Origin: Candidatus Auribacterota bacterium
GTDB taxonomy: Bacteria; Auribacterota; Tritonobacteria; UBA1439
Reading direction: 5' to 3'
Length of the DNA: 39,636 nt
NCBI GenBank assembly: GCA_026392015.1
Contig: JAPLCW010000184.1
Span: 1 to 39,636, forward strand
The notes beneath the pieces were generated by a model that ran no database searches, was not told the origin of the DNA, and saw only the letters and a program-made list of their open reading frames with translations. Below, piece after piece: positions 4,584 through 8,730 of the stretch. Positions within the stretch are counted from its first letter, which is position 1; each line of letters opens with the position of its first letter. The position numbers and the translations under genes were made by a program.

Positions 4584-5258
4584 TCACAGTCCCGCGATAC
4601 CCGAAAAGAAAATGGCGGAGAGAATCGCATTGATCGGGCTGAGCACGGTGTACAGCAAAGGGGTATTGATCAGAAATATAAGCAGCCAGGGGCCGGTTGA
4701 TTCGAGGATCGTCGATACCCTCGTCACGTCGAAACGAAGCGTAAGGGCAAGTATATGATATCCGTCGAGCGGCGGGACCGGGATGAGGTTGAAGAGACTG
4801 AGCCAGAGAGAGATGGAGATCATGTGGATGAGAAGGTTGATGGGCGCGCCCAGCGCGGCAAGATGGGAGGGGAAAACGATTCCCAATCCCCTGAGAGCCA
4901 CGGCGGCGAGGATCGCGAGGATAAAGCCCGAAGCGCATCCGGCAAAGCTGATGAGGATATTGTCCCTCCGCCATCTCCTCACATTTGAGGGATTTACCGG
5001 AACGGGCTTCGCCCAGCCGAAAAAGCGAAATCCGGAGAGGAAACCGATCCCCGTCCCCTGGAATAGAGAGAATATAAGAGGCGAGAGCGGGATGAGTACT
5101 GTTCCCAGGAGATCGATATGCGCCCGGGGGTCGAGCGTCATCCGCCCCATAAGCCGGGCGGTCTGATCGCCGCAGCGGTCGGCCGTCCACGCGTGGGCGT
5201 ACTCATGAACCGTTACTATGAACAGAAAGACCAGATAGCCGGTGACGAATTCAATCAT
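4584..5258 (-). CDS. site-2 protease family (M50) membrane metalloprotease
   Basis: The product is a polytopic membrane protein of 224 residues. HEYAH (HExxH, residues 18-22) sits in the first membrane segment and supplies the zinc ligands and catalytic Glu. NLIPVPPLDGYHI near residues 156-168 matches the second conserved M50 motif (NxxPxxPLDG), whose Asp is the third ligand. There is no PDZ or CBS domain, so it belongs to the short M50/YwhC-like group. Family members cleave substrates within the membrane; no partner is encoded nearby. The ATG at 5256-5258 has no clear ribosome-binding site. Promoter and start are uncertain because the 420 bp upstream is full of repeats. Confidence 0.85.
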   Translation of the reverse strand: MIEFVTGYLVFLFIVTVHEYAHAWTADRCGDQTARLMGRMTLDPRAHIDLLGTVLIPLSPLIFSLFQGTGIGFLSGFRFFGWAKPVPVNPSNVRRWRRDNILISFAGCASGFILAILAAVALRGLGIVFPSHLAALGAPINLLIHMISISLWLSLFNLIPVPPLDGYHILALTLRFDVTRVSTILESTGPWLLIFLINTPLLYTVLSPINAILSAIFFSGIAGL

Positions 5259-5281
5259 AAGAAAAAACCGGGGATTGCGCG

Positions 5282-5321
5282 CCTGTCTGCCGGCAGGCAG
5301 GGATTTGGCGGATTTATCCGC
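5282..5321. repeat. two short palindromes
   Basis: CCTGTCTGCCGGCAGGCAGG (5282-5301) is a 20-bp palindrome with one mismatch. GCGGATTTATCCGC (5308-5321) is perfect. They lie upstream of the M50 gene start. Confidence 0.7.
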
Positions 5322-5412
5322 ACAGACGGCCCATCATCCTCCCCTCTCCCCCAAGGGACGAGGGAAGAAGATGTGACCTCCTTCCATGCATGGGGAAGCA
5401 CTCATCGTATGC

Positions 5413-5559
5413 CTCAGAAGGTGTGAAAAAATCTGGAATTCCATCCACCTCTGTGCACCATAGTCTGTAGGGGCTCGATTTATCGAGCCCTACGCGGCGG
5501 GTCGGATGAATCCGACCCCTACAAAAATGCGCAAAACTGATTTTTTCACACCTTCTCAG
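5413..5559. mobile_element. MITE-like element with nested palindromes
   Basis: The ends are 21-bp inverted repeats with one mismatch, sharing AGAAGGTGTGAAAAAATC at 5413-5433 and 5539-5559. Inside, GTAGGGG (5467) pairs with CCCCTAC (ending 5521) around two perfect hairpins: GGGCTCGATTTATCGAGCCC (5471-5490) and GGGTCGGATGAATCCGACCC (5499-5518). The element has no open reading frame. It resembles a miniature inverted-repeat element whose transposase is elsewhere; no target duplication is obvious. Confidence 0.65.
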
Positions 5560-5570
5560 TTATGGGAGGT

Positions 5571-5640
5571 CGCATTTGGGCTTTTGCCACATTTTTATGA
5601 GACAAATCCCCCCATTCCCCCCTTTTCCAAAGGGGGGGGG
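5571..5640. repeat. two-hairpin dispersed element, family B copy 1
   Basis: It begins CGCATTTGGGC, contains TTGCCACATTTTTATGAGAC (TTGCC...GGCAA hairpin, here with one change), then AAATCCCCCCATTCCCCCC and a CCCCCCTTTTCCAAAGGGGGG hairpin. The same ordered sequence is found at 10504-10571 and 37506-37577 in the same orientation. Confidence 0.8.
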
Positions 5641-5679
5641 AGGGGGAATTCATCATGATTATTTAATCTGCGGGTGCAA

Positions 5680-8600
5680 TCACTGCCCCTTTACCGAGCG
5701 CACCACCTTTTCGTTCCCCTTCTCCAACTTGTAGATGCCGTCGTAGATCGCCTTGCCCACGTAATGGGTAACTCCCCATGAGATCTTATCGATAGTGATC
5801 CGCAACCCCTCAAGGAGATAGTTGACGTTGCTCACCACCCGGATGTTCTTATCGCGAATCGGATACAGCATCCCGCGATCCATGTCGGTGAAGACGTGCT
5901 CTAGCCATTCGATGAGGAGAGATACCCTGTATGCCGACCCGCGTCCCGCGGCGCCTACGGGGTTCAGGAAGACAATGGGTGACGCATTGCTATAGGTAAT
6001 CTCCTTTATCTGAAGAGCGTGCAGGAGCTCCCGGAACCTCTCCTTCGGGTAGTAGTCGGGCAGTTTCTCATACCCTTCGGTCAGCCTGGCCAACCCCGTA
6101 CCGATGGGCTTTTTATTGTCGCCGGGATAGGCAAGGTCGAACAGGTTGTCGAGGTCTGAGAACGCCTCCCTGTTGAGAACCCCGACCAGGTCCGCTCCGA
6201 TGACATGGATATCCGTCGGCTTCTCCAGATCGTGGCCGTGGTAACGTCCGTTTTTAGCGAGAAATCCAGGCTGCTTCTCCTCCTTGCGCCGCTCGTATTC
6301 CGCGACAAGGTCTGAGAGATCGATCTGCTGATCTCTATACGGGAGCCCCGCGAGGAGCGCTTTAGCTGATCCTCCGCTGCCGGAGCTATCTTCCTCTCCC
6401 TCGCTCTTCAAGAAACCTTTCAGCGCCGTCCCATCGAACCGTTCACTGTCGTATGGGATGCGCAAAAGGGAAAGCACGGTGGGCACAAGATCAGCCGATC
6501 GCGCGCCGTCGCTGATCATAATCCCCTTTCTCACGTTTGGCCCCGACACGATGAACGGGATATGCATGGAACTGTAGAGGAGGTAGCCGTGTCCGCCGGA
6601 TGGCTGCTCGGGTTTCTCAAACGACCACCCGGGAGCGGCGCAGAGCACCATGTCCGGAGCGTACCGCTGTTCCCTTTCGGCGATGTTCCCGTCCCAGAAC
6701 ATCTGATTCGCAATCGCAACCACCGCGTCGGGATAGCGAAAATACTTGCTCCCCTCCAGCCACTCCCGGTCCGTATGGAACTCCCTGAGCGCTCCGGGCG
6801 GGACTCCGGCTTTTATGTATCCGAGCGGATCGCCGCTGTCCGTCTCTTCATATGTAACACGCCCCTCGGAAGTGTTTCGAATCCCCCTTGAGGGGATATA
6901 CCGGTAAAGGTACTTTCCGTTTCCATGCGCCTTTCGCTCTATTATCGCCTGTGTCCCCTCCTGCCCGAACACCGCGACACGGTTCTCATCAAGCTTCACC
7001 AGTACCTGGGCGACCGGACGGCCTGATACCTTTCCCGGGAAGAGGTTCTGCTCGCCCATGTCACACGCGAGGAGCCGCTCGATGAGATCCACGGGGGAGT
7101 ACCCCGGGTCGACGGCGTAGTGCGTGAGATTGTAGAGGTTATTCCGCCGGAGCCATTCGCCCGAGTCCACGTCGCTGTAGGGCAGGTAAACGCGCGCCTC
7201 ACCCTCGCCGTGATCAACGAATACAAATCCCTTCTTTTTCCTCTCCTTCCGCATGAAGCTGTCATCATACCAACTGACGTTGCATCCCATCCCGGAACCG
7301 GGATCGGGCATCCGGTCACGATCGGTATCGCTGAGAGGTTTATAGAAGAACTCCCGCGCCACGTCGAACTTCTGGAGCAGTGTCCCCTCCCCTCCCACCG
7401 TGCCGTGGTCGGCGAAAAGGATGAGGTAGGTGCGGTCCCACAGCTTTTTCCGCATGAGCTCATCCCTAATCGCCGCGATGCGGGCGTCCACGTTAGCGAG
7501 AGCCACCCTCCCCCCCCCGAATTGCGCTCGGGCATCGTCGTGAGAGCTCGCGTCAACGCCGGGGAACCAGAAGTTCATCACCCTAACATCGGGCCTGATC
7601 ACGAGATCCTTCGCATAGCGCGCATTGATCTCATCGGCATAATCCTTTGCGTGGTGGAAATAAAACGGCGGGATCACCGTCGAGGCGTCCACCTCGTAGC
7701 GATCGGGCGGAGAGTTCGGGAGGATGGGATTCAAGGTGCTGGCAAACTTCATTCCCTGGCCGCCCAGATAATCCGCGAGAAGCAGCACGTCCCCGCTTCT
7801 CTCTTCAGTGTGGCGGCGATACGCGCCGGGGAATGGGAACAGCATCGCTTTTTTCATAACCATGCCCAGTTGCCGCAGGCCTGTCGGCCTGAGCTCATCC
7901 GCGGCCACGGGAGGCCCGAACGGCTCCAGGTAGGTGCCGCACTTCCTCTTTTTCCGGTCGAAGTAGTTGTTCCCCTTCACCCCGGAACGGTTGGGGAAGA
8001 CCCCGGTGTAGAGCGTCGCATTGCTCGCCAGCGTGCTCGAAGGGAAGACCGTGAAGCTGTTGACAAAATCGGTTCCTCCATCGAAGAAAATTTCTCTGAT
8101 GGTGGGCAGGTATCCAGAAAGCGCCATCTCGCGCAGCACATCGTAGCGGAGTCCGTCAACGTAGAGGAGTACAACGCGCGCATCCCGGACCGGCCGGCCT
8201 TCCGGCAACCCCTTCGATGCGAAGACGACCTTGTCCTCCCGCTCCGCTGCCGCCACAGCCTCCTCCCCCACCGCGATCTCGGCCGTAAAGCTGCCGTTGT
8301 TGTCACTCACGTCAAAATCGTTGATGCCGAGGTACAGCCTCCCCGCGGCATGCGCATCTCCGTAGTATTCGCTCCCCACAAAAAACGGGGTTCCGGATTC
8401 GCCGATCCTGCCGATGAGGCAGTAGCCTGGCGCCGGGCCCTTGTCCGCCGAAGGGACGGGGAATTCCCGGTCTTTCACCGCCTTTGCATGGCGATATGTG
8501 CCCCGCGGACCGACGCGCCAGTCGAATCCGTCCCGTCCCATGTACGACCATCCCACGATTTCTATTTCGCCGGACGCCGTGATCCTGAACGGCTCCTTAT

Positions 8601-8730
8601 CCTTGAGGTCGATTCCCGTATCGGTGTATGGCTGCCGGGCAGGCACGGAAACCTTCGTCGCAGCGCGCGCAGGCTGCGGACAAATAAACGCCAGGATAAA
8701 AAATAAAACAGCTCGCATCGCCAATCTCAT
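5680..8730 (-). CDS. secreted PA-IL-like lectin domain fused to type I phosphodiesterase
   Basis: The product has 1016 residues. A signal peptide (1-23, cleavage after ARA) is followed by a jelly-roll domain at about 28-155. Its features IGRIGESGTPFFVGS and LYLGINDFDVSDNNGSF match LecA/PA-IL-like calcium-dependent lectin domains. The rest is an alkaline-phosphatase-superfamily type I phosphodiesterase/nucleotide pyrophosphatase core. Asp192 in LLYVDGLRYD is a metal ligand and Thr233 in PSSTLASNATLYTG is the nucleophile. Asp393 and His397 lie in FPGVDASSHDD, Asp441 and His442 in FADHG, and a last His in GGHGY near 713. It is long for the family because of inserts and a C-terminal region of about 250 residues that I do not recognise. 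The ATG is preceded by GGAGGAGAC; an ATG at codon 5 is also possible. It is probably periplasmic or outside the cell and acts on a sugar-linked or nucleotide phosphodiester, but the substrate is unknown. Confidence 0.8.
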   Translation of the reverse strand: MRLAMRAVLFFILAFICPQPARAATKVSVPARQPYTDTGIDLKDKEPFRITASGEIEIVGWSYMGRDGFDWRVGPRGTYRHAKAVKDREFPVPSADKGPAPGYCLIGRIGESGTPFFVGSEYYGDAHAAGRLYLGINDFDVSDNNGSFTAEIAVGEEAVAAAEREDKVVFASKGLPEGRPVRDARVVLLYVDGLRYDVLREMALSGYLPTIREIFFDGGTDFVNSFTVFPSSTLASNATLYTGVFPNRSGVKGNNYFDRKKRKCGTYLEPFGPPVAADELRPTGLRQLGMVMKKAMLFPFPGAYRRHTEERSGDVLLLADYLGGQGMKFASTLNPILPNSPPDRYEVDASTVIPPFYFHHAKDYADEINARYAKDLVIRPDVRVMNFWFPGVDASSHDDARAQFGGGRVALANVDARIAAIRDELMRKKLWDRTYLILFADHGTVGGEGTLLQKFDVAREFFYKPLSDTDRDRMPDPGSGMGCNVSWYDDSFMRKERKKKGFVFVDHGEGEARVYLPYSDVDSGEWLRRNNLYNLTHYAVDPGYSPVDLIERLLACDMGEQNLFPGKVSGRPVAQVLVKLDENRVAVFGQEGTQAIIERKAHGNGKYLYRYIPSRGIRNTSEGRVTYEETDSGDPLGYIKAGVPPGALREFHTDREWLEGSKYFRYPDAVVAIANQMFWDGNIAEREQRYAPDMVLCAAPGWSFEKPEQPSGGHGYLLYSSMHIPFIVSGPNVRKGIMISDGARSADLVPTVLSLLRIPYDSERFDGTALKGFLKSEGEEDSSGSGGSAKALLAGLPYRDQQIDLSDLVAEYERRKEEKQPGFLAKNGRYHGHDLEKPTDIHVIGADLVGVLNREAFSDLDNLFDLAYPGDNKKPIGTGLARLTEGYEKLPDYYPKERFRELLHALQIKEITYSNASPIVFLNPVGAAGRGSAYRVSLLIEWLEHVFTDMDRGMLYPIRDKNIRVVSNVNYLLEGLRITIDKISWGVTHYVGKAIYDGIYKLEKGNEKVVRSVKGQ

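Follow-up and report, generated by a model that had tools for sequence, protein, structure and literature searches.

A REP hairpin pair nested in a short element with IS1182-type ends in a Candidatus Auribacterota genome

Between two same-strand genes of a Candidatus Auribacterota bacterium lies a 139-bp non-coding element that is very probably nested, namely a non-autonomous MITE with IS1182-type ends that carries a pair of REP hairpins as its passenger. The element occupies positions 5417-5555 of the window, by which we mean the whole stretch of DNA analysed (39,636 nucleotides of contig JAPLCW010000184.1), and was delimited by an exact match to a two-end pattern (C99:5417-5555) and by paired copies elsewhere. 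The genome of the window (G000) is a draft of 3.85 Mb in 216 contigs, 94% complete; the main genomes compared with it are G003, from another genus of the same family, and two acidobacterial ones, G042 (an assembly) and G045. An earlier note, made from the sequence alone, had described three levels of nesting within 147 bp, and all three are visible in the minimum-energy fold. Folded as single-stranded DNA, these 147 nt reach -37 kcal/mol (z -8.6), and 0 of 200 shuffled sequences were as stable.

The terminal inverted repeats proper are 17 nt long (GAAGGTGTGAAAAAATC; 5417-5433 on the + strand and 5539-5555 on the - strand). Both were recognized from a search for inverted arms and from matches to the end motif, and the left one also from ends of the same type on two elements coding for an IS1182-family transposase (L126 and L127, described below). 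The ends had previously been given as 21 bp. Inverted arms of 21 nt do exist (5413-5433 and 5539-5559, 95% complementary, spaced 105 nt), but the true repeat is the shorter one: the single mismatch, where the third base is C in one arm and G in the other, is explained by the outermost bases, which repeat directly instead (TCA, 5414-5416 and 5556-5558). Aligned copies accordingly share GAAGGTGTGAA as their conserved terminus, with T-C/G-A directly repeated outside it. The left arm (5434-5466) is common to sister copies of the MITE lineage but not to the IS1182 interior, with which the MITE arms, compared by eye, have nothing evident in common beyond the ends; the right arm (5523-5538) was placed from the sequence and the aligned copies. 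Short and bounded by terminal inverted repeats, the window copy is also non-coding, as the earlier note had proposed: the sole open reading frame of at least 80 aa that touches it (5118-5426, 102 aa, + strand) runs antisense to the flanking M50-like gene and stops 10 bases inside the element. Two other repeats were observed close by. Adjoining the element, 5604-5650 is an imperfect inverted repeat, AAATCCCCCC..GGGGGAATT, that looks like another dispersed repeat, and 5283-5300, in the same intergenic gap, is a palindrome, CTGTCTGCCGGCAGGCAG, to which a string in a REP of locus L130 is similar.

Inside the arms, GTAGGGG (5467-5473) and CCCCTAC (5516-5522) enclose two 20-nt hairpins, just as first noticed, GGGCTCGAT-TT-ATCGAGCCC and GGGTCGGAT-GA-ATCCGACCC, each built of 9 bp + 2 nt + 9 bp. 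This core had been called a cruciform; it is better named a pair of GTAG-tagged REP hairpins. REP 1 (GTAGGGG with the CTCGA subtype, 5467-5490, + strand) and, convergent with it, REP 2 (GTAGGGG with the TCGGA subtype, 5499-5522, - strand) were both identified by site search, subtype sorting and fold, and REP 1 also by stem pairing. REPs of the GTAG type occur at 229 sites in G000, compared with 2 for a control pattern, and 157 of 168 free stem positions are paired (n=56), against a mean of 97 and a maximum of 119 after shuffling. With its GTAG tag at the hairpin foot, two inverted copies, high genomic copy number and stem covariation, the inner unit is a REPIN-like pair of convergent GTAG-tagged REP hairpins, set on unrelated arms. 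Subtypes of these REPs differ in how often they lie within 160 bp of one of the element's inverted repeats: among 100 of the 229 sites, this was the case for 14 of 20 CTCGA/TCGGA REPs, 5 of 19 CTTGA REPs and 1 of 61 TTCGA/TTTGA REPs. Element-borne REPs are therefore a subtype distinct from free ones, and most likely multiply as passengers.

The window element is one copy of many. The end motif AGAAGGTGTGAAAAAATC was detected at 52 sites in G000 (at most 3 mismatches; 5 sites for the reversed control pattern), and a BLAST search with 191 bases returned 41 matches at E <= 0.001, part of them to REPs only. Loose pairing of ends gave 82 rows, among them false pairs such as window 5368-5554 that the subsequent filter removed: keeping the shortest pair per right end left 73, and requiring at least 12 of 18 arm bases to match left 68. 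These 68 paired elements comprise 21 in G000, 13 in G003, 13 in G042 and 21 across six more genomes, the counts outside G000 covering fetched stretches rather than whole-genome censuses. The earlier note had proposed looking for further copies that have these ends, and had named a single copy with no empty site in relatives as the observation that would speak against a mobile element; instead, copies are numerous and at unrelated positions, and relatives lack the element at the orthologous locus.

Beyond these genomes, no copy was found in G001 (same genus, 83% complete), G002, G004 or G005, and within the phylum the strict two-end pattern was present in 2 of 44 genomes searched. A scan of GTDB matched it on 17 contigs, in Acidobacteria, Variovorax, Pseudomonas, Rubrivivax and Azoarcus records; for the proteobacterial records the family assignment is tentative, and some of the matches could be due to chance or to another family. 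Among the scan matches, an IS1182 transposase with such ends was found only for G045 and, by one end, for G042, and a search within 2 mismatches revealed no convincing ends near the transposases of G039 and G041. Three individual copies have unusual forms. A 51-bp element in Variovorax (G039, L149:544-594) has both ends, is almost coreless and has CTCAG on either side; an element in G044 (L161:431-526) is centred between 14-bp palindromic flanks, CCTCCCAGGCTGAG/CTCAGCCTGGGAGG; and a family MITE in G000 (L100:1003-1295; G000:C125:30371-30667) has an arm hosting another inverted-repeat element, with ends like CTAGTACACTG/CAGTGTACTAG, which likewise carries the CATTGCGAG palindrome met in other copies.

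At the window locus, the element sits in a 421-bp gap between a downstream gene (4584-5258, - strand), for which orthologues were found in relatives and whose product we take to be an M50-like (site-2 protease-like) membrane protein, and an upstream gene (5680-8730, - strand) for a large protein, presumably a phosphodiesterase/alkaline phosphatase. In G003 (L211) and G005 (L214) no element separates the two genes, which follow each other directly, the stop codon of one meeting, or almost meeting, the start codon of the other; the comparison is not base-precise, since the spacer differs. Given this position, between two genes that share a strand and lie side by side in relatives, the hairpins of the window copy probably reduce or stop transcription from one gene into the next, or else serve to stabilize RNA.

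TCA stands on both sides of the window copy, and exact 3-bp TNA duplications flank 40 of the 68 elements, whereas re-pairing left and right triplets gave a mean of 20.7 and at most 32 in 5000 rounds; in the other 28 the duplication is imperfect. Exact duplications were most consistent in G003 (12/13) and G042 (10/13), followed by G000 (12/21), and those in the other genomes (6/21) were not above shuffling. A 5-bp duplication (CTSAG) was also considered and dropped: its first or last base often differs, and only the inner three agree. In G000 and G003, the surroundings of the target resemble GTAATGSS-TCA-GTTAY, and the orientation of TCA/TGA relative to the core, judged by eye, is often but not always constant. 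Two loci of G003, one empty (L140) and one filled (L145), provide a junction pair: their right sides match over more than 110 bases with a single mismatch, their left sides over only 11 bp (GTAATGGGTCA), and TCA occurs once in the empty locus and twice in the filled one. At the sequence level this pair is supportive of insertion with duplication but not decisive, because the left homology is short and equals the target consensus.

The family was assigned through longer elements with the same ends. G003 contains three pairs of these ends spaced about 2 kb, and two of them encode an IS1182-family transposase: L126 (1003-3011) scored 334 bits against the NF033551 equivalog (cut-off 270, E 1.6e-99), and L127 (1003-2959), in which the frame is broken, scored 257.8 bits, slightly below that cut-off. 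In the acidobacterial G045, an IS1182 transposase (L233, 410 bits) lies between same-type ends, with inverted repeats 2.04 kb apart and TCA as target-site duplication, and a transposase fragment of G042 (L238) has one perfect end next to it. The full-length element that the earlier note had suggested looking for was thus recovered twice in G003 and once more in G045, and with such same-ended autonomous elements (L126, L127 and L233) the window family is, as far as its ends indicate, of the IS1182 type. In G000 itself, we found no IS1182 transposase above the cut-off (6 partial hits, the best at 36 bits), 0 matches to the L126 protein and no autonomous partner, in a 94% complete, 216-contig draft in which a multi-copy IS could be hidden; possibly, then, the MITE family lacks a living partner there. 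The ends of two G000 contigs (C202 and C206; L228 and L229) have an identical 141-bp stretch encoding the C-terminus of an IS1182-like transposase, where the assembly was probably interrupted by a multi-copy IS; the inverted repeats of the window family were not seen in this stretch.

Cores other than the REP pair occur between the same ends. In several G000 copies (e.g. L074, L078, L079, L081, L096 and L099) the REP pair is replaced by a TGTCATTGCGAG..GCAATGACA palindrome, which copies in G003 likewise carry. One G003 element (L128:1003-3016; G003:C85:37835-39852), flanked by TGA on both sides, combines these ends with CATTGCGA palindrome arms around a 373-codon DUF4172/Fic gene, and is possibly a gene-carrying cassette. 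Cores are thus exchangeable inside the same ends: REP pairs, CATTGCGAG palindromes and, once, a Fic-domain gene. A folding z below -2 was obtained for 46 of 64 cores compared with 22 of 130 flank controls, with several single-copy cores from other genomes folding no better than shuffles, and between L140 and L145, within one genome, the palindrome is seen both present and collapsed to its tips. The REPs, in turn, have interchangeable loops. A 23-nt module, CCTTCGGCAAGCTCAGGACAAGT, is present at 57 sites in G000 (control, 0). Thirty of these loci were retrieved (L240-L269), and every one has the module within the loop of a REP-like stem (28 by a strict test); the stems are of several different sequences, and 87 of 99 free positions pair (n=33). 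The same module was found within REPs inside these MITEs (L055, L060, L086 and L094). A bolder and rather doubtful reading is that all of this forms one modular nested system, in which IS1182-type ends serve as a chassis for a REP pair, a CATTGCGAG palindrome or a whole gene, REP stems accept either a TT loop or the 23-nt module, and insertions prefer the loop of the outer hairpin. If this were true, the same vehicle would serve both a DDE transposon and a system of hairpin repeats, and the nesting would follow from IS1182 enzymes choosing their targets by structure.

For the nested element itself, we infer that an IS1182 transposase would bind the 17-bp ends regardless of the interior, so that any short insert would be carried along, and that insertion at TCA/TGA sites most likely takes place together with whatever stands between these ends. 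A GTAG-tagged REP pair would have entered one MITE lineage and then multiplied as its passenger, which would explain why CTCGA/TCGGA REPs are nearly confined to MITEs and TTCGA REPs are free. A role for a RAYT in the first entry of the REP pair into this lineage is possible, though unsupported. The opposite order of events, in which REP pairs mobilized by a RAYT (Y1) enzyme independently entered many pre-existing MITE copies, would fit with the 14 Y1_Tnp genes of G000, the abundance of free REPs (229 sites vs 2 for the control), the plausibility of palindromes as targets, and the REP dimers inside palindromes on record for Anabaena variabilis in a section of PMC3733652. It is nonetheless improbable, given that element-borne REPs form a separate subtype (14/20 vs 1/61, among 100 of the 229 sites) on the same arms, and that REPs of the window type are absent from the immediate surroundings of all 14 Y1 loci, the degenerate copies near L021 being about 1.4 kb off. 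Only one of the 14 Y1_Tnp genes, L018 (G000:C200:8880-9152), has GTAG-tagged hairpins on both sides; these are of another sequence (GGCCTTAAGGCC type), and L018 likely represents a RAYT that has a REP of its own. About 1.7 kb from it, an IS1182-type end was observed.

Two further readings were considered. The long hairpin with its inner hairpins might be part of a structural RNA or a bidirectional terminator that was duplicated by recombination, as the very stable fold of the window copy, its position between two same-strand genes and the compensatory changes that keep the inner REP stems (157/168 vs a shuffled mean of 97) could suggest. That the same ends enclose IS1182-coding elements and wholly different interiors, that a 3-bp duplication flanks the elements, and that copies are scattered over non-orthologous positions makes this highly improbable. 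Alternatively, the element could have replaced a target hairpin and left no duplication, in the manner of IS1272, an IS1182 family member that replaces inverted repeats (PMC5678879, PMC4923244). A weak TAA..TTA symmetry at the targets and the palindromic flanks of L161 point in this direction, but a 3-bp duplication is found here, which is nearer the loop-duplication branch of the model as presented in PMC5678879. Moreover, when target stems (TAA..TTA, GTAA..TTAC and ATCA..TGAT) were tested against left and right flanks re-paired inside each genome, complementarity was only modestly above shuffling, with some of the many offsets tried reaching z about 3 in G000 and in all genomes pooled, and none exceeding z 2.5 in G003 alone or G042 alone. 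We therefore consider such a replacement unlikely, and favour transposition of a MITE with its REP passenger.

Each component has precedents. ISMac2-related MITEs of Methanosarcina acetivorans (160 and 169 bp, IS1182 family; PMC3852290) are of similar size, have terminal inverted repeats, depend on an IS1182 partner and occur in several copies; the last column of the source table gives 4 and 0 for them, which we read as DR length, against 3 bp (TCA/TGA) here, and the present elements differ from that description in having as their interior a REP pair or some other palindromic repeat. As in GTAG REPs, REPINs and BIMEs (PMC3733652; see also PMC3116915 and PMC8266576), GTAG stands at the foot of a 20-nt hairpin, hairpins pair in opposite orientation, stems show compensatory changes, and copies number in the hundreds; unlike these, the REPs here have their own subtype inside a DDE-transposon MITE, with no matching RAYT found alongside. 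The GTAG-15 dimers of Anabaena variabilis within long palindromes (PMC3733652) are likewise REP dimers nested in a longer inverted repeat, although their ends differ from those described here and the section that describes them links the palindrome to no particular transposase family. IS1272 and TnSha1 share with this family the IS1182 affiliation, palindrome-linked targets and carriage of passenger DNA, but in the sections of PMC5678879 and PMC4923244 concerned they replace a hairpin without duplication, whereas TCA/TGA is duplicated here. In the open-access literature searched, we came across no description of IS1182 MITEs that enclose a REP pair, are flanked by a 3-bp duplication and can exchange their cores, and no match to the sequence strings of the ends, REPs or loop module. 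IS1182 MITEs and REPs inside palindromes are hence already known separately, and the combination would appear to be new relative to that literature.

Taken together, these observations offer an example in which a mobile repeat travels within a second one. REPs could in this way become more numerous via the MITE rather than via a RAYT enzyme, which affects how REP populations are counted and dated. Within the IS1182 family, for which replacement without duplication had been described, the present copies define one subgroup that duplicates TCA/TGA and has a recognizable target context, and they show that a whole gene (Fic) fits between ends of this type. In the window, two genes that abut in relatives are now kept apart by a mobile hairpin.
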